Shown one piece after another: positions 17,705 to 50,945 of a stretch of 64,000 bases of DNA. The stretch lies in assembly GCF_019702945.1 (NCBI RefSeq), contig NZ_AP024749.1, positions 2,294,001-2,358,000 on the forward strand. Direction: 5' to 3'. The notes under the pieces were generated by a model. That model saw only the letters and a program-made list of their open reading frames with translations, searched no databases and had not been told where the DNA came from. The stretch's first letter is position 1; the number at the start of each line of letters is the position of its first letter. Source of the stretch: Flavobacterium okayamense (GTDB lineage Bacteria > Bacteroidota > Bacteroidia > Flavobacteriales > Flavobacteriaceae). The position numbers and the translations under genes are program-made.

Positions 17705-17709
17705 AAAAG

Positions 17710-17819
<110 letters not shown>

Positions 17820-17989
17820 GTTTTAAGTCTAAAGTTAAAAGTTACAAGTCAAAAAGTATATCTTACTTTGGACTTTTGTCTTTCGACTTTTGACTGCAAC
17901 CATGGTTGCCAATATCTTAACATACTGAGAAAAGAATCTATTTGATTCAGAAAGAAAGTGTCCCCGCCCTAAAGCGGGGAGACGCGTAC

Positions 17990-20860
<2,871 letters not shown>

Positions 20861-20930
20861 CTTATTTAGCTTTACATTATAAAATGCAAAACTGTGCTTT
20901 CTATTCTACTTATTATATTTTTTCTTTTCT

Positions 20931-20947
20931 CAATATGTCAATGAACG
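20931..20947 (-). promoter_or_regulatory. boxA-like antitermination element before 23S
   Basis: Minus strand CGTTCATTGACATATTG. It is 16 of 17 identical to the element before 16S at 22906-22922 and resembles boxA of rRNA antitermination (NusB/S10 binding). Confidence 0.55.
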
Positions 20948-20965
20948 GTTATCCTTTCGGATATG

Positions 20966-21039
20966 TGGAGAATATCGGAGTCGAACCGATGACCTCCTGC
21001 GTGCAAGGCAGGCGCTCTAGCCAGCTGAGCTAATCCCCC
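20966..21039 (-). tRNA. tRNA-Ala (TGC)
   Basis: Cloverleaf with acceptor GGGGGAT/ATTCTCC, D arm TAGCTCAGCTGG, anticodon stem CCTGC/GCAGG with loop CTTGCAC (anticodon TGC) and T loop GTTCGACTCC. CCA is not encoded. It lies in the 16S-23S spacer. Confidence 0.97.
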
Positions 21040-21125
21040 ATTCTTAAATTCAGAATTATGAATTCAGAATTACGAATTTTGAATTCTCAACTTCCAGAAT
21101 TTCCTTAAAAAAAACTCAAAAATAG

Positions 21126-21199
21126 TAGTCCCGGGCAGACTCGAACTGCCGACCCCTACATTATCAGTGTAGTACTCTAACCAGCTGAGCTACGAGACT
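21126..21199 (-). tRNA. tRNA-Ile (GAT)
   Basis: Acceptor AGTCTCG/CGGGACT, anticodon stem CTACA/TGTAG with loop CTGATAA (anticodon GAT), T arm GCAGTTCGAGTCTGC. CCA is not encoded. The 16S, Ile, Ala, 23S order is the standard spacer arrangement. Confidence 0.97.
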
Positions 21200-21285
21200 C
21201 TGTATTTTTAGCTTTTTCATTAAATTTTTGAACTAACAGCGAGAGTAAAACTCATATCCAAACAAACCATCTTATCATTTCTCTA

Positions 21286-22800
<1,515 letters not shown>

Positions 22801-22905
22801 GTAGTTTTTAAATATTGTACGATAAGTGCTAGGTTTATTTAATTTCAATTCGCCTTACTCTCTTAATTTTTACAACTTACATCTCTGTAAGTCGTGCTGT
22901 CAATC

Positions 22906-23330: not shown

Positions 23331-23351
23331 GTTAACAACAAAACGCCTTGA

Positions 23352-23411
23352 ATAGCCCCGATGGTAACGACATCCTTTTTGAAAAAAAAGATATAGTGGA
23401 CAGCGGGAAAT
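23352..23411. repeat. Hairpin-forming intergenic element downstream of the DUF4294 gene
   Basis: Contains ATCCTTTTT and AAAAAAAAGAT as an AT-rich inverted repeat, flanked by AGCCCCGATGG on the left and GGACAGCGGGAAAT on the right. Sequences of this look occur repeatedly between genes in Flavobacteria. It lies just past the minus-strand gene ending at 23439 and could act as its terminator. Confidence 0.45.
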
Positions 23412-23438
23412 CTAACGAACTGAATGGAAGATTGTGTG

Positions 23439-44163: not shown

Positions 44164-44186
44164 TCCAAATATTGCTATGAAAAAGA

Positions 44187-44217
44187 AAAGTCCGAAATTA
44201 AATTTTCGGACTTTTTT
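44187..44217 (+). terminator. Terminator of the marR-nitroreductase-yceI unit
   Basis: AAAAGTCCGAAA and TTTTCGGACTTTTTT form a stem followed by a T run. Confidence 0.9.
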
Positions 44218-44226
44218 AATTTTTTA

Positions 44227-44259
44227 TTTGGAATATCTAAATAAGTTTATATAAATTTG
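44227..44259 (+). promoter_or_regulatory. trp operon promoter
   Basis: TTTG (44227-44230), 21 bases, TAAATTTG (44252-44259). Transcription would start in the 7-base repeat that follows, about 20 bases before the leader peptide. Confidence 0.6.
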
Positions 44260-44260
44260 C

Positions 44261-44288
44261 AAAATACAAAATACAAAATACAAAATGC
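44261..44288 (+). repeat. Tandem 7-base repeat AAAATAC before the trp leader peptide
   Basis: Three exact copies of AAAATAC and a fourth, AAAATGC, whose ATG (44285-44287) is the start codon of the leader peptide. Confidence 0.85.
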
Positions 44289-44341
44289 AAAACATTTTAA
44301 ACAATACTTGGTGGTGGATTAACTTACGTCGAACGTCGTGA
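44285..44341 (+). CDS. trpL: trp operon leader peptide
   Basis: 18 residues, MQNILNNTWWWINLRRTS, ending in TGA. Three consecutive TGG codons (44309-44317) make it a tryptophan sensor: scarcity of charged tRNA-Trp would stall the ribosome there. It lies between the trp promoter and a terminator hairpin upstream of trpE. The stop codon overlaps the segment GTCGTGA (44335-44341), which is complementary to TCACGAC (44394-44400) in the terminator region. Confidence 0.88.
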   Translation: MQNILNNTWWWINLRRTS

Positions 44342-44380
44342 GCAAATCCTCTATTTGTATAGTTTAATCAAAATACATTC

Positions 44381-44413
44381 AAAGGCTTGTCAATCACGAC
44401 AAGCCTTTTTTTA
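44381..44413 (+). terminator. trp attenuator terminator
   Basis: AAAGGCTTGTC and GACAAGCCTTT form an 11-bp stem with loop AATCAC, followed by a T run (44407-44412). It ends 19 bases before trpE. A 7-base alternative pairing with the end of the leader peptide gene would open the top of the stem. Confidence 0.88.
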
Positions 44414-44431: not shown

Positions 44432-45832
44432 ATGACAAAATATAAATTTACAACATACAGCAAAAAAATAATCGCCGATACGATTACACCGGTTAGTTTA
44501 TATCTAAAAATTAGAGATGAATTCCCAAACAGCATTCTTCTTGAAAGTTCTGATTATCATGCAAATGACAATAGTTTTTCATATATCTGTTTCAATCCAA
44601 TTGCTTCTTTCAAAGTCGAAAATCAAAACATTCACATACAATTTCCAAACGAAAATGAGGCAATCAATCCGATAATAGAAAAAAATCAAGTAATAACTGA
44701 ATTGCAAAAATTTAGAAACGCATTTAAAACGGAAACAAATGAATTTAAATTTATTTCCAATGGTTTATTTGGTTACACGGCTTACGATGCCATTCAATAT
44801 TTTGAAAAAATAAACGTTGAGAGAAAATCAAACGACAGTACAATTCCTGAACTTTATTACGCAGTTTATCAAAATATAATTGCTATTAATCATTTTAAAA
44901 ACGAAGCCTATTTATTTTGCCATAGTTTAAATGATGAAAACAATATTTCTAAAATTGAACAAATCATCGCTAATCGCAATTTAGCGACCTACAACTTTAT
45001 AAAAATTGGTGATACATCTTCAAATATTTCAGATAATCAATTTAAAGAAAATGTAGCCAAAGCTAAACAACATTGCAAACGTGGTGATGTTTTTCAATTG
45101 GTTTTATCAAAACGATTCGATCAAGAATTTAAAGGAGATGAATTTAATGTTTATAGGGCTTTACGAAACATTAATCCTTCACCTTATTTATTTTATTTTG
45201 ATTATGGAAATTTTAAAATATTTGGTTCTTCTCCAGAAGCGCAATTAGTAATTCAAAATAATCATGCCGAAATTCATCCTATTGCGGGAACTTTTAAAAG
45301 AACTGGAAATGATGAACAAGATGTTGAATTAGCTAAGAAACTAACTGAAGATACCAAAGAAAACAGTGAACATGTTATGCTTGTTGATTTAGCTCGAAAC
45401 GATTTAAGCACCTATTGTAACGAAGTTAAAGTAGAAAAATACAAGGAAGTACAATATTTTTCCCATGTAATCCATTTGGTTTCAAAAGTAGTGGGTAAGC
45501 TAAAAAAATCCGATGCTGATTTAAACTTGGTTGCTAAAACTTTTCCAGCAGGAACGTTATCGGGAGCTCCAAAAGTAAAAGCCATGCAACTAATCGAAAA
45601 TATTGAAACTACAAACAGAAGTTTCTATGGTGGCGCAATAGGAATGCTAGATTTTAATGGCAATTACAATCATGCCATAATGATTCGTTCCTTTTTAAGT
45701 AAAAATCACAAGTTGTATTTTCAAGCTGGAGCTGGAATTGTTGAAAGTTCTAATGAAGAAAACGAATTACAAGAAGTATATAACAAAATAAATGCTTTAC
45801 AAAAAGCAATAGAATTAGCCGAAACAATTTAA
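44432..45832 (+). CDS. trpE: Anthranilate synthase component I
   Basis: 466 aa from the ATG at 44432 (MTKYKFTTYSKKI). An in-frame ATG at 44387 would put the attenuator hairpin inside the gene, so it is rejected. The chorismate-binding domain shows GDVFQLVLSKRF, PSPYLFYF, GSSPEAQL, HPIAGTFKR and LDLARNDLS-like VDLARNDLS, with the C-terminal FPAGTLSGAPKVKAMQLI and QAGAGIVESS. It converts chorismate to anthranilate with TrpG. The N-terminal LLESSDY motif matches the Trp feedback-binding site. Confidence 0.96.
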   Translation: MTKYKFTTYSKKIIADTITPVSLYLKIRDEFPNSILLESSDYHANDNSFSYICFNPIASFKVENQNIHIQFPNENEAINPIIEKNQVITELQKFRNAFKTETNEFKFISNGLFGYTAYDAIQYFEKINVERKSNDSTIPELYYAVYQNIIAINHFKNEAYLFCHSLNDENNISKIEQIIANRNLATYNFIKIGDTSSNISDNQFKENVAKAKQHCKRGDVFQLVLSKRFDQEFKGDEFNVYRALRNINPSPYLFYFDYGNFKIFGSSPEAQLVIQNNHAEIHPIAGTFKRTGNDEQDVELAKKLTEDTKENSEHVMLVDLARNDLSTYCNEVKVEKYKEVQYFSHVIHLVSKVVGKLKKSDADLNLVAKTFPAGTLSGAPKVKAMQLIENIETTNRSFYGGAIGMLDFNGNYNHAIMIRSFLSKNHKLYFQAGAGIVESSNEENELQEVYNKINALQKAIELAETI

Positions 45833-45835
45833 TCT

Positions 45836-45843
45836 TATATTTG
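45836..45843 (+). promoter_or_regulatory. Possible internal promoter before trpG
   Basis: TATATTTG in the trpE-trpG gap, 8 bases before the trpG ATG. The -33 element is not clear. A start here would yield an almost leaderless trpG mRNA. Confidence 0.35.
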
Positions 45844-45851
45844 CAGAACTC

Positions 45852-46415
45852 ATGAAAGTAGCCGTTATAGATAATTACGACAGTTTTACATACAACCTAG
45901 TTCACTACTTGGAAGATTTAGGTGCTGATATAACTGTGTTTAGAAACGATGAATTCGAATTAGAAGAATTAGATTCTTTTGAAAAGATTTTACTTTCTCC
46001 TGGTCCTGGTATTCCGGATGAAGCCGGACTTCTAAAAGAGGTTATCAAAACCTATGATAAAACGAAAGACATTTTTGGTGTTTGTCTAGGTTTACAAGCC
46101 ATTGGTGAAATTTATGGTGGAAAACTAACCAACTTAGATACTGTTTTTCATGGTGTTGCAACAAAAATTTCAGTAACCAATGATGATTACATCTTTACTA
46201 ACTTACCACAAAATTTTAATGTTGGTCGCTACCATTCTTGGGTTGTGGCTACTGAAAACCTACCCGAAACTTTAATCATCACTTCAACTGATGAAAATGG
46301 GGAAATCATGTCGTTAAAACATCAACATTTAAAGGTTCGTGGTGTACAATTTCATCCAGAAAGTGTTTTAACTCCAAACGGAAAGCAAATTTTAGAAAAT
46401 TGGCTTAAAGCCTAA
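45852..46415 (+). CDS. trpG: Anthranilate synthase component II (glutamine amidotransferase)
   Basis: 187 aa, class I glutamine amidotransferase. Catalytic Cys in FGVCLGLQAIGE, with His and Glu in VQFHPESVLTPNG. The N-terminal DNYDSFTYNLVHYLEDLGA and LLSPGPGIPDEAG are typical. It supplies ammonia to TrpE, and may also serve PabB, as in organisms with a single amphibolic subunit. It is 19 bases after trpE and 86 bases before trpD. Confidence 0.96.
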   Translation: MKVAVIDNYDSFTYNLVHYLEDLGADITVFRNDEFELEELDSFEKILLSPGPGIPDEAGLLKEVIKTYDKTKDIFGVCLGLQAIGEIYGGKLTNLDTVFHGVATKISVTNDDYIFTNLPQNFNVGRYHSWVVATENLPETLIITSTDENGEIMSLKHQHLKVRGVQFHPESVLTPNGKQILENWLKA

Positions 46416-46501
46416 TCCTTATCACATATTAATCCAATTTGAGAAACCTATTTATAGATTTCTTCAGTAGACTTTATTTCAATTTCTAAATTATTCAAAA
46501 A

Positions 46502-47497
46502 ATGAAAACTATTTTAAATCAATTAATTACACATCAAACACTATCAAAACAAGAAGCAAAAGAAGTGTTACTTAACATATCAAAAGGTGATTATAACGAA
46601 AGTCAAATCGCTGCATTTATCACTGTTTATTTAATGCGAAATATCACTTTAGAAGAGTTAACTGGGTTTCGTGAAGCATTATTAGAATTGTGTATTCCTG
46701 TTGACTTTAGTGATTATAACACTATCGATTTATGCGGAACTGGTGGCGATGGAAAAGATACTTTTAATATTTCAACCTTAGCTTCATTTATAGTAGCCGG
46801 TGCCGGAATTAAAGTTGCAAAACACGGTAATTATGGAGTTTCCTCAATTTCTGGTTCAAGTAATGTTATGGAAATAATGGGTGTGAAATTTTCAAATAAC
46901 CAAGATTTTCTAAAAAAATGTATTGAAGAAACAAATATTGCCATTCTTCATGCGCCACTCTTCCACCCTGCTTTAAAAAATGTGGGGCCTATTCGTAAAA
47001 ATTTAGGTATCAAAACATTCTTTAATATGTTGGGACCAATGGTCAATCCTTCGTTTCCAAAGAATCAAATGGTAGGTGTTTTTAGTTTAGAATTAGCTCG
47101 AATGTATGCCTATTTATATCAAAATACAGAAGTTAATTTCAGCATTTTACATGGCTTAAGTGGATTTGATGAAGTTTCTTTAACCGATAATGTAAAAGTT
47201 ATTACGAATACATCGGAACAAATTATTTCTCCTGAAGATTTTGGCTTTCATAAAATTAAATTAGAAGCTATAAAAGGAGGAACAACGACTGATGAAGCTG
47301 CTAAAATATTTTACAATATTATTTCAGGAAAAGGAACTTTGGAACAAAAACAAGTGGTTTGTGCAAATACAGCGTTAGCAATTCAAACCGTTGAAAAATT
47401 AACCTTTGATGAGGCTTTTTCTAAAGCAGAAGAAAGTTTATTAAGTGGGAAAGCGTTTGAAAAACTAAATAAATTAATTGCAATTAGTAAACAATAA
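46502..47497 (+). CDS. trpD: Anthranilate phosphoribosyltransferase
   Basis: 331 aa, normal for TrpD. The PRPP-binding GTGGDGKDTFNIST lies near residue 77, with KHGNYGVSSISGSSNVMEIMG and the conserved HAPLFHPALKNVGPIRKNLGIKTFFNMLGPMVNP (by pattern). It joins anthranilate to PRPP to give phosphoribosylanthranilate. trpC follows after 10 bases. Confidence 0.96.
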   Translation: MKTILNQLITHQTLSKQEAKEVLLNISKGDYNESQIAAFITVYLMRNITLEELTGFREALLELCIPVDFSDYNTIDLCGTGGDGKDTFNISTLASFIVAGAGIKVAKHGNYGVSSISGSSNVMEIMGVKFSNNQDFLKKCIEETNIAILHAPLFHPALKNVGPIRKNLGIKTFFNMLGPMVNPSFPKNQMVGVFSLELARMYAYLYQNTEVNFSILHGLSGFDEVSLTDNVKVITNTSEQIISPEDFGFHKIKLEAIKGGTTTDEAAKIFYNIISGKGTLEQKQVVCANTALAIQTVEKLTFDEAFSKAEESLLSGKAFEKLNKLIAISKQ

Positions 47498-47507
47498 AAC
47501 TTACAGA

Positions 47508-48296
47508 ATGAACATCTTAGATAAAATTATATCCGACAAAAAACGAGAAGTGGAATTAAAGAAAAAATTAGTTTCAGTCAACCAATTAGAAGCTACTGAT
47601 TTATTCAATTCGCGAACAAAATCGTTAAGTAAAATTTTAGCCAATAGTAACATTGGAATTATTGCCGAACATAAAAGACGTTCCCCTTCAAAAAGTATTA
47701 TAAATTTTAATCATTCAGTTGAAGATGTAACGTTGGGTTATCAAAACGCTGGAGTTTCTGGAATTTCTGTTTTAACGGATGGAAAATATTTTGGTGGAAG
47801 TTCAGACGATTTACTGTTAACAAAAGCAACTGTAAATATTCCAGTTTTGAGAAAAGAGTTTATTATAGATGAATACCAAATTTTAGAAGCAAAAGCATTT
47901 GGAGCTGATGTTATTCTACTCATTGCAGCTGTTTTAACTCGAGAAGAAATTCAACATTTATCACTGTTTGCGCAAAGTTTAGGTTTAGAAGTTTTATTAG
48001 AAGTTCACAATCGGGAAGAATTAGAAAAATCGATAATGCCAAGTTTAAATATGATTGGTGTTAATAATAGAAATCTAAAAACATTTGAGGTTAGTTTAGA
48101 TTACAGTAAGGAACTAGCACAACTCATTCCTGATGAATTTGTAAAAGTTTCGGAAAGTGGCATAAGTTCAATTGAAGCTATTAAAGACTTACAACAATTT
48201 GGTTACCAAGGCTTTTTAATGGGAGAACATTTTATGAAAACTGATAATCCTGGAAACGAAGCTAAAGCATTCATTCAAAAACTGATTAAATTATGA
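47508..48296 (+). CDS. trpC: Indole-3-glycerol phosphate synthase
   Basis: 262 aa from the ATG at 47508 (MNILDKIISDKKREV); an upstream in-frame ATG at 47478 lies inside trpD. The TIM barrel shows IIAEHKRRSPSKSII, GISVLTDGKYFGGS, LRKEFIIDEYQI, GADVILLIAAVL, GVNNRNLKTFEV and VSESGIS, the usual catalytic loops. It closes the indole ring from CdRP. Its stop overlaps the start of trpF by 4 bases. Confidence 0.96.
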   Translation: MNILDKIISDKKREVELKKKLVSVNQLEATDLFNSRTKSLSKILANSNIGIIAEHKRRSPSKSIINFNHSVEDVTLGYQNAGVSGISVLTDGKYFGGSSDDLLLTKATVNIPVLRKEFIIDEYQILEAKAFGADVILLIAAVLTREEIQHLSLFAQSLGLEVLLEVHNREELEKSIMPSLNMIGVNNRNLKTFEVSLDYSKELAQLIPDEFVKVSESGISSIEAIKDLQQFGYQGFLMGEHFMKTDNPGNEAKAFIQKLIKL

Positions 48297-48925
48297 AACC
48301 CAAATTAAAAATATGCGGTATGAAAAATCTTGAAAATATTCAGGAAATTTCAACTTTAGAATCTGAATTCATAGGCTTTATTTTTTGGGAACCTTCAAAA
48401 AGATATTGCGATTTAGAATCATTACCCTTGCTACCAAAATCTATTAAAAAAGTTGGTGTATTTGTAAATGCTTATTTCTATGATATAATGGAAAAAGTAA
48501 AACAATATAATTTAGATATAGTCCAACTTCATGGCAACGAATCACCAACACTTTGTAGAGATTTAAAGAAAGAAAATATTACGGTTATTAAAGCTTTTGC
48601 TTTAAATAATGGGTTCAATTTTAGCATTTTAAAATACTTTGAAGCCACTTGTGATTATTTTTTATTTGATACAAAAGGTAGACTTCCAGGTGGTAACGGA
48701 ACTACTTTCGATTGGAAAATATTAGAAAATTATAATTTGGACACTCCATTTTTTTTAAGTGGCGGAATTGGACTCAATCAAACCAAACAATTAAAAGAAT
48801 TCTTCAGTTTAGAAGTTTCAAAAAAATGCTATGCTATCGATGTAAACAGCCAATTTGAAACTGAATATGGAATTAAAAACAAAAGTGAATTAAAACAATT
48901 TCAACAACTACTAAACACATTTTAA
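48293..48925 (+). CDS. trpF: Phosphoribosylanthranilate isomerase
   Basis: 210 aa TIM barrel. The catalytic Cys is in [12 protein letters not shown], the Asp in [18 protein letters not shown], and the phosphate loop in [12 protein letters not shown]-terminal [15 protein letters not shown] is also typical. It shares ATGA with trpC, so translation is probably coupled. trpB starts 2 bases later. Confidence 0.95.
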
Positions 48926-48926
48926 G

Positions 48927-50111
48927 ATGAATTATACTGTAGATGAAAACGGATTTTACGGAAAATTTGGTGGCGCATTTATTCCGGAAATGTTGTATCC
49001 AAATGTAGAAGAATTAAAACAAAAATATCTTCAAATCATGAACGAACCTTCTTTTCAAGAAGAATATCAGGATTTACTGAAACAATATGTGGGCAGACCT
49101 ACGCCATTATATTTTGCAAAACGATTATCAGAACAATACAATGCTAAAATCTATTTAAAAAGGGAAGATTTATGTCATACTGGTGCTCATAAAGTGAACA
49201 ATACCATCGGGCAAATTTTAATGGCTAAACGTTTAGGCAAAAAACGAATTATTGCCGAAACGGGTGCTGGTCAACATGGTGTGGCAACGGCTACAGTTTG
49301 TGCTTTAATGGGGTTAGAATGTATTGTATATATGGGCGAAATTGATATTCAACGCCAAGCTCCAAATGTTGCAAGAATGAAAATGTTAGGTGCCGTAGTT
49401 CGTCCAGCAACTTCAGGCTCTAAAACGTTGAAAGATGCTACAAATGAAGCGATTCGTGATTGGATTAATAATCCTACAGACACTTTTTATATTATCGGTT
49501 CTGTGGTTGGTCCACATCCTTATCCAGATATGGTTGCCAAGTTCCAACGCATTATTTCTCAAGAAATTAAGTCACAACTAAAAACTTTAGAAGGAACTGA
49601 AAATCCAAATTATGTTATTGCATGCGTAGGTGGCGGAAGTAATGCCGCTGGTGCATTTTATGAATATTTAGAGGAAGAAAATGTACAATTAATTGCTGCT
49701 GAAGCCGCTGGTAACGGTGTAGATTCTGGTGAAAGTGCTGCTACTTCTGTTTTGGGAAAAATAGGAATTATTCACGGAAGTAAAACCCTTTTAATGCAAT
49801 CTGAAGACGGACAAATAACGGAACCCTATTCTATTTCTGCAGGATTAGATTATCCAGGTGTTGGACCTTTACATGCACATTTGTTCGATTCCAAAAGAGC
49901 CATTTTTGAAGCGGTTACTGATGATGAAGCCATGCAAGCTGGATTAAATTTATGCAAAAAAGAAGGAATTATTCCTGCAATTGAATCATCTCATGCATTA
50001 GCTGTTTTAGACAAAAGAAAATTTCAACCTGATGATATAATTGTCATTAATTTATCGGGTCGTGGCGATAAAGATTTAAGTACTTATATAGATTACTTTG
50101 ATATATATTAA
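48927..50111 (+). CDS. trpB: Tryptophan synthase beta chain
   Basis: 394 aa, normal TrpB1 type. The PLP-binding Lys is in [13 protein letters not shown] (about residue 85), with [12 protein letters not shown], the phosphate-binding [12 protein letters not shown] and the C-terminal [12 protein letters not shown]. It condenses indole with serine to tryptophan, in complex with TrpA. A 72-base gap with AATTACGA-like repeats precedes trpA. Confidence 0.98.
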
Positions 50112-50183
50112 AATTACGAATTATCAATTACGAAATAAAAGTATCAAATAAACGCATTAACAAACTAACGACTAAACATTGTT

Positions 50184-50945
50184 ATGAATAGAATTAATCA
50201 AAAACTTCAAGAAGATAAAAAACTTTTATCTATTTATTTTACAGCTGGTTTTCCAAACCTAAACGATACCACTACTATCATTAAAGAATTAGAAAAAAGT
50301 GGAGTCGATATGATTGAAATTGGTTTGCCATTTAGCGATCCTTTAGCAGATGGGCCAACCATTCAAGAAAGTTCAACAATTGCAATCGAAAATGGAATGA
50401 CTACAAAAGTTTTATTTGAACAACTGAAAGACATTCGTAAAACAGTACAAATTCCGTTAATAATAATGGGCTATTTTAATCCAATGATGCAATTTGGCGT
50501 AGATAATTTCTGTAATAAATGTGCAGAAATTGGAATTGATGGGCTAATTATTCCAGATTTGCCTTTAGAAATTTATAAAAGTGAATACCAATCTATTTTT
50601 GAAAAATACAATTTGAAAAATATCTTCTTAATTACGCCACAAACTTCCGAAAGTCGTATTCGAGAAATTGATGAATTATCCGAAAGTTTCATTTACATGG
50701 TGAGTTCGGCTGCAGTAACAGGAAGTCAGTCTGGTTTTGGAATCGAACAAACGGAATATTTCAAAAGAATTCACGATTTAAAATTGAAAAACCCTCAAAT
50801 TGTGGGCTTTGGTATAAAAGATAAAGAAACATTTAATCAAGCTATAGAATATCAAAAAGGAGCGATTATTGGTAGTGCATTTATAAATTTTATAAGAAAT
50901 CAACATTTCAATAAGATAAATGATTTTTGCAGCAACATATTGTAA
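50184..50945 (+). CDS. trpA: Tryptophan synthase alpha chain
   Basis: 253 aa TIM barrel. Catalytic Glu in IEIGLPFSDPLADGPTIQ and Asp in IDGLIIPDLPLE; phosphate site VSSAAVTGSQSGFG and GFGIKDKETF. It releases indole from indole-3-glycerol phosphate for TrpB. It is the last gene of the seven-gene trp operon. No terminator hairpin is obvious before the sulP promoter box. Confidence 0.97.
   Translation: MNRINQKLQEDKKLLSIYFTAGFPNLNDTTTIIKELEKSGVDMIEIGLPFSDPLADGPTIQESSTIAIENGMTTKVLFEQLKDIRKTVQIPLIIMGYFNPMMQFGVDNFCNKCAEIGIDGLIIPDLPLEIYKSEYQSIFEKYNLKNIFLITPQTSESRIREIDELSESFIYMVSSAAVTGSQSGFGIEQTEYFKRIHDLKLKNPQIVGFGIKDKETFNQAIEYQKGAIIGSAFINFIRNQHFNKINDFCSNIL

Follow-up and report, generated by a model that had tools for sequence, protein, structure and literature searches.

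What decides whether RNA polymerase enters the trp operon of Flavobacterium okayamense? In the 64,000-nucleotide stretch of DNA that we analysed (the window), the operon trpEGDCFBA is preceded by a leader with a short open reading frame (ORF), and the coordinates of the parts are collected in Table 1. The leader is a member of an already catalogued family, because it matches the Rfam covariance model RF01692 (Bacteroid-trp; described in Rfam as the Bacteroidete tryptophan peptide leader RNA) with 72.7 bits, against a gathering score of 49. In keeping with membership, its frame has consecutive Trp codons (WWW) and lies ahead of seven trp genes identified by Pfam. At gathering thresholds, RF01692 is the sole Rfam match at the leader, and no T-box or other trp element was found here. 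As in attenuators of the E. coli trp type, the peptide is rich in the regulated amino acid (three Trp in 18 residues) and an intrinsic terminator lies between the leader frame and the first gene. The leader region has a predicted folding energy of -41 kcal/mol, versus a mean of -20.1 kcal/mol for shuffled sequences (z -6.76). The closest TrpE proteins in named records are 93-94% identical and come from one Flavobacterium MAG and one Flavobacteriaceae MAG.

Upstream of the leader there are promoter-like elements with the motif TAnnTTTG, which we take to be the Bacteroidota promoter consensus. Just 5' of this box, and 3' of a YceI gene, is a terminator-like hairpin (44184-44217) that scored on both strands. 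Elsewhere in the window, a Flavo-1 RNA (RF01705, 58.3 bits) lies at 23350-23414 on the + strand, near an rRNA operon (17709-22802).

Table 1. Parts of the trp leader and operon, in window coordinates.
Feature	Position	Strand	Basis or remark
Promoter-like elements, Bacteroidota type: TTG and TAAATTTG (TAnnTTTG)	44228-44230 and 44252-44259, 21 nt between	+	sequence
RF01692 Bacteroid-trp match	44265..44391	+	full model 1-131, ending in terminator 5' arm
Leader ORF MQNILNNTWWWINLRRTS, 18 codons and TGA, ATG at 44285	44285..44341	+	sequence
Three consecutive Trp codons TGGTGGTGG, presumed stall site	44309..44317	+	sequence
Region 1, CTTACG	44323..44328	+	MFE fold: partner CGTGAG (44337-44342) in ORF hairpin
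Region 2, GTCGTGA, predicted 5' strand of antiterminator; includes TGA stop at its end	44335..44341	+	
Terminator stem, 11 pairs, loop AATCAC, followed by T tract	44381..44408	+	
Terminator 5' arm AAAGGCTTGTC	44381..44391	+	terminator scan
Region 3, TCACGAC, last four loop bases and first three 3'-arm bases	44394..44400	+	partner 44335-44341
Terminator 3' arm (to 44408) and T tract	44398..44413	+	sequence, terminator scan
trp operon	44432..50945	+	Pfam matches for all seven genes
trpE, trpG, trpD, trpC	starts 44432, 45852, 46502, 47508	+	Pfam
trpF, trpB, trpA	starts 48293, 48927; trpA 50184-50945	+	Pfam

An initial annotation of this DNA had proposed that GTCGTGA, at the end of the leader frame, pairs with TCACGAC, a segment of the terminator's loop and 3' arm. 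We re-read the sequence: the ATG, the Trp codons, both segments and the terminator are where they had been placed, and the two segments are exact complements. From the window sequence alone, this complementarity is only mildly improbable. Of 50000 shuffles of the 63-nt segment that preserve its dinucleotides, 2244 contained a perfect 7-mer match to the loop and 3' arm, and the stacking-energy p value from shuffles was 0.009-0.015. Chance would be a possible source of the match if we had the window alone, and it is made unlikely by conservation in relatives. The case for the pairing is built on that conservation, not on the single sequence.

RF01692 was matched (E<=0.001) in 19 of 40 relatives, in 42 of 395 phylum-wide genomes and in 208 of 299 genomes from the window's own bacterial family, f1. 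(The window's genome is included in all three counts.) Among other bacterial families, it was matched in 44 of 151 genomes from f25, 54 of 98 from f26, and 12 of 101 from f17. We fetched 255 loci, of which 7 gave no leader, and obtained 242 distinct leaders: 169 from f1, 30 from f25, 29 from f26, 12 from f17, and one each from f2 and f5. The run of Trp codons, which the initial annotation expected to be conserved, numbers three in 217 of these leaders, two in 24, and four in one.

In f1, the segment that follows the Trp codons pairs with the terminator loop and 3' arm at a shuffle p<0.05 in 153 of 169 leaders (48 at p<0.01). A contiguous helix between this segment and the terminator's 5' arm was significant by the shuffle test in 0 of the 169. 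The window's leader shows the same pattern (p 0.009 for the loop and 3' arm and 0.66 for the 5' arm). Outside f1, tests of single leaders gave p<0.05 for the loop and 3' arm in 8 of 30 leaders from f25 and 4 of 29 from f26, which is weak, and in 0 of 12 from f17.

We also considered 80 loci (L294-L373) that were chosen by their TrpE and not by the RNA. As some of their species are also in the first set, the selection is independent but the data are not. A leader whose best helix, of 5-8 bp, is at the expected place was found in 79 of the 80 loci, without a shuffle control. The helix has 7 bp in 45 of these loci, 6 bp in 15, 8 bp in 14, and 5 bp in 5 (at least 6 bp in 74). The 80th locus (L362) has the same parts with a GTG start. 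Across the leaders, the pairing shrinks to 4-5 bp in L055, L237, L051, L113, L305, and four Maribacter loci, and in L060 the best helix is elsewhere than the expected place.

TAnnTTTG is present within 45 nt 5' of the leader's ATG in 78 of the 79 TrpE-selected loci. In 30 of these 78, the box ends at most 7 nt before the ATG; in the window, the gap is 25 nt. With the box this close to the ATG (and given the general offset between such a box and the start site), many relatives may translate the leader frame from an mRNA that is all but leaderless.

The distance from the Trp codons is also conserved. TCGTGA is found in 161 of the 169 f1 leaders and starts 17-21 nt past the last Trp codon (18 nt in 127 leaders and 19 nt in 28). 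TCGTRA is found in 56 of the 59 leaders from f25 and f26, at 20-22 nt past the last Trp codon. The segment does end the frame in the window, as originally described, but in relatives its placement follows the Trp codons and not the stop codon. In the 161 f1 leaders, TCGTGA overlaps the stop codon in 98, lies wholly after it in 33, and lies wholly before it in 30, so that 63 are off the stop; and it occurs in all three reading phases (128, 28, and 5 leaders). Since the motif is found in three phases and before, across, or after the stop codon, it is an RNA segment that is conserved and not the end of a peptide. We rejected peptide conservation as the cause of the motif for this reason. A stalled ribosome has a footprint that would cover region 1, and region 2 is far enough from the Trp codons that it would stay exposed when the ribosome stalls there.

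Taken together, we think that this is very probably ribosome-mediated trp attenuation, with a predicted antiterminator that captures the terminator's loop and the upper part of its 3' arm. The reading as a trp leader attenuator, which goes back to the initial annotation, held up in the main comparative tests: the pairing in f1, the alignment described below, the register, the TrpE-selected loci, and the predicted folds. Some finer tests, taken up further on, did not add support.

The strongest competitor is classical attenuation, in which a long and interrupted antiterminator would form on the 5' arm and the loop/3'-arm match would be no more than its distal end. We consider this possible but clearly less likely. 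The nested fold of the window's nascent RNA contains the 7-base pairing and adds a weak continuation into the 5' arm (GCAA:UUGU and CCU:AGG), and in f1 class 1 and in f26 the consensus fold also reaches into the 5' arm. When we asked if the 22 nt downstream add pairing, they did so at p<0.2 in 20 of 29 leaders from f25 and 18 of 27 from f26 (at p<0.05, in 4 and 3). In f1, however, this extension is no better than in shuffles (30 of 161 leaders at p<0.2 and 3 of 161 at p<0.05; for the window, p is 0.60). The loop/3'-arm core is the most conserved part, and the canonical 5'-arm antiterminator is unsupported in f1 as the main pairing, given that none of its leaders has a significant contiguous helix there. 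The original suggestion that the antiterminator uses the terminator loop instead of a long helix is favoured for f1, with the reservation that a weak nested continuation into the 5' arm is predicted.

Other leaders in the same genome appear closer to the classical arrangement. The his leader (L271, upstream of hisG) has a run of five His codons (HHHHH) and the phe leader (L290, upstream of pheA) has a run of three Phe codons (FFF). Like the trp leader, both have a run of the regulated codon, a terminator, and a complementary region after the run. They differ in where that region pairs. In the his leader, GCTCAAGCG pairs with CGTTTGAGT in the 5' arm (p 0.0085 with the loop included and 0.005 without it). 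In the phe leader, GGGATT pairs with AATCCC and the 5' arm is again preferred, although this is not significant on its own (p 0.087). Two further his and phe leaders (L262 and L280), taken from other members of the genus, agree, so all four leaders that were tested prefer the 5' arm. Among RF01692 leaders, those of f17 appear to have the classical 5'-arm topology: 4 of 12 gave a significant pairing with the 5' arm. In f17 leaders such as L058, L059, and L144-L155, the segment after the stop codon seems to be the one that matches the terminator 5' arm; by eye, this is GGCAGCC with GGTTGCC in L058.

We then turn to predicted folds. When the full leader is folded without a ribosome, 216 of 217 leaders have region 2 paired with upstream sequence at P>0.5, and all 217 form the terminator. 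When the ribosome sits on the last Trp codon and the RNA ends at region 3, the pairing is predicted at P>0.5 in 215 of 217 leaders (161 of 161 from f1, 29 of 29 from f25, and 25 of 27 from f26). For the window's leader at this stage, P is 0.99 with the stalled ribosome versus about 1e-5 without it; across f1, the pairing still has P>0.5 without a ribosome in 36.6% of the 161 leaders. Once the whole terminator is transcribed, with the ribosome still stalled, nested thermodynamics give the window's terminator 0.956 and the pairing 0.0025. The consensus fold of 29 fragments from f25 has the top of the terminator, not the pairing. Since the complete terminator wins in nested folds, either the switch is kinetic or the pairing coexists with the terminator as a pseudoknot.

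Such an H-type pseudoknot would keep the lower terminator stem and act on polymerase as a strained or incomplete terminator. The order of the segments would allow it (region 2, 5' arm, region 3, 3' arm, with region 3 abutting the remaining 3' arm), and the lower 8 bp of the stem are compatible with the pairing. But nested alternatives suffice, and we consider the pseudoknot unlikely. The pairing had initially been called pseudoknot-like; this is possible but not required, as nested folding of the nascent RNA yields the pairing too.

Another explanation, which we rate as quite improbable, is that GTCGTGA is kept solely for the ORF hairpin, where it pairs with region 1, and that it matches the terminator loop incidentally, as a by-product. 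The ORF hairpin does hold region 2 in 216 of 217 folds. Also, because one motif recurs in many leaders, the conservation is in large part invariance. Covariation, which the initial annotation looked to for support, gave a mixed outcome. In an alignment of 149 leaders (A1), 90.3% of cells are paired for the 7-base pairing, its covariation is 0.267, and both sides are changed in 93 cells. For six slid registers, the paired share was 20-50%, covariation did not exceed 0.134, and no more than 7 cells had changes on both sides. (As a positive control, the terminator helix was 99.7% paired with covariation of 0.307. The helix of regions 1 and 2 was 70.5% paired, and a slid register covaries equally.) But two measures on this alignment do not exceed column shuffles: 121 of 500 shuffles were as high for pairs changed on both sides, and 394 of 500 for further pair types. 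Pair 28:119 is G-C in 91 leaders and A-U in 50, which is mostly one split between f1 and f25/f26. In tree-aware tests of the end pairs, a loop base was compared with base 30 and with base 23; each comparison had 6 supported independent pairs (median p of 1 and 0.5), which is too few independent changes.

Among variant leaders picked by hand, partner specificity was rare. We compared the native pairing of each of 16 such leaders to six class swaps, and 14 of the 16 do not beat all six. For instance, L314 (from an Aquimarina group of four; UGUUGUGU with ACACGGCA), L317 (GUCGUAAG with UUUACGAU), and L128 (GUCGUAG with CUGCGGC) keep 7-8 pairs, G-U included, without beating the swaps. The first exception is L222, in which GUCGCAAU pairs with AUUGCGAC within an 11-bp match that has two compensatory changes in the core; its native energy is -17.0 kcal/mol, versus -7.1 to -10.5 kcal/mol in the swaps. 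The second is L303 from Robiginitalea (UCGUGAC with GUCACGA), whose own partner is better than all swaps by just 0.1 kcal/mol.

Several observations nevertheless argue against a by-product. First, a terminator places no demand on the sequence of its loop, but UCAC is retained in f1. Second, in L222 the loop and region 2 have changed in concert, and the two differ jointly between f1 and the f25/f26 leaders that have GUCGUAAG and CUUACGAC or CUUGCGGC. Third, across 270 distinct leaders, native partners give -12.37 versus -11.35 for shuffled partners and are better than all 200 shuffles. For the 214 leaders from f1 and the named loci, the values are -12.62 versus -12.37, and 0 of 200 shuffles are as good; for the 56 leaders from f25 and f26, the partner shuffle is not significant (31 of 200 as good).

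Finally, a terminated leader RNA is expected, and a trp leader peptide is reported to act in trans in Sinorhizobium (PMC7298713), but it is very improbable that the pairing serves to shape a trans-acting small RNA instead of controlling termination, as it is not predicted in the finished leader (0.0025 with the 5' part masked; about 3e-9 for downstream pairing of region 2 in the whole leader).

Returning to attenuation with capture of the loop and 3' arm, the parts, their conservation and spacing, the complementarity, and the alternative folds lead us to infer the following scheme, in which ribosome stalling would cause a kinetic block of nucleation and then readthrough. Charged tRNA-Trp would be sensed via the position of the ribosome. 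If there is no ribosome, GUCGUGA would be held in the ORF hairpin and the terminator would form. If Trp is ample, the ribosome would reach the stop codon and cover GUCGUGA, and again the terminator would form. If Trp is scarce, the ribosome would stall on the UGG triplet and open the ORF hairpin, leaving GUCGUGA free. UCACGAC would then pair with GUCGUGA on leaving the polymerase, the top of the terminator (GUC/GAC and the loop) could not nucleate, and polymerase would continue into trpEGDCFBA. The eight lower base pairs of the terminator are untouched by the pairing and might still terminate. Whether capture of the loop and 3' arm alone suffices for antitermination seems to us an even call.

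More broadly, there may be a class of attenuators in Bacteroidota that block terminator nucleation by capturing the loop and 3' arm, without sequestering the 5' arm and with the register set by distance from the Trp codons. As the homologous leader in f17 appears to use the 5'-arm topology, one leader family would have switched between the two; we could argue this generalization either way. The rule for region 2, which covers nearly all of the leaders from f1 and from two other families, turns the catalogued RF01692 into a mechanism that a small number of point mutations could test. If antitermination does come about by occupation of the loop and upper 3' arm, then the controlled step would be nucleation of the hairpin, separated from the stability of the stem. 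And for the annotation of attenuators, searches that require pairing with the 5' arm would miss this type.

How does this leader compare to known systems? In the E. coli trp attenuator, a stalled ribosome frees region 2, which then pairs with the terminator's 5' arm. The window's leader is similar in having a leader peptide with Trp codons, mutually exclusive states, and a region 2 that a stalled ribosome would free. It differs in that the conserved pairing takes the loop and the loop-proximal part of the 3' arm instead of the 5' arm. The LEU element of Actinobacteria, as described in its report (PMC1262725), also has a leader frame for an amino acid together with a pseudoknot or alternative hairpin that is conserved; in contrast, its base stem runs between the Leu codons and the leuA Shine-Dalgarno box, and its authors propose a binding protein in place of classical attenuation. 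Closer to the window, strong clues for leader-peptide attenuation 5' of amino-acid operons are reported in F. psychrophilum (PMC9723704). RF01692 itself was catalogued in 2010 by Weinberg et al. (PMC2864571, available text). The Rfam model and the window share the same leader, the same ORF hairpin, and the frame with Trp codons before trp genes, but the structure line of the model has only the ORF hairpin, without an alternative pairing to the terminator. As the model stops at the 5' arm of the terminator, the 7-base pairing lies outside of it. Among the papers listed in our literature searches, no title or opening of an abstract was about a loop/3'-arm pairing, and supplements or subscription journals may hold an earlier description. 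The family of leaders is known, and what seems to be new here is the antitermination pairing with the loop and 3' arm of the terminator.
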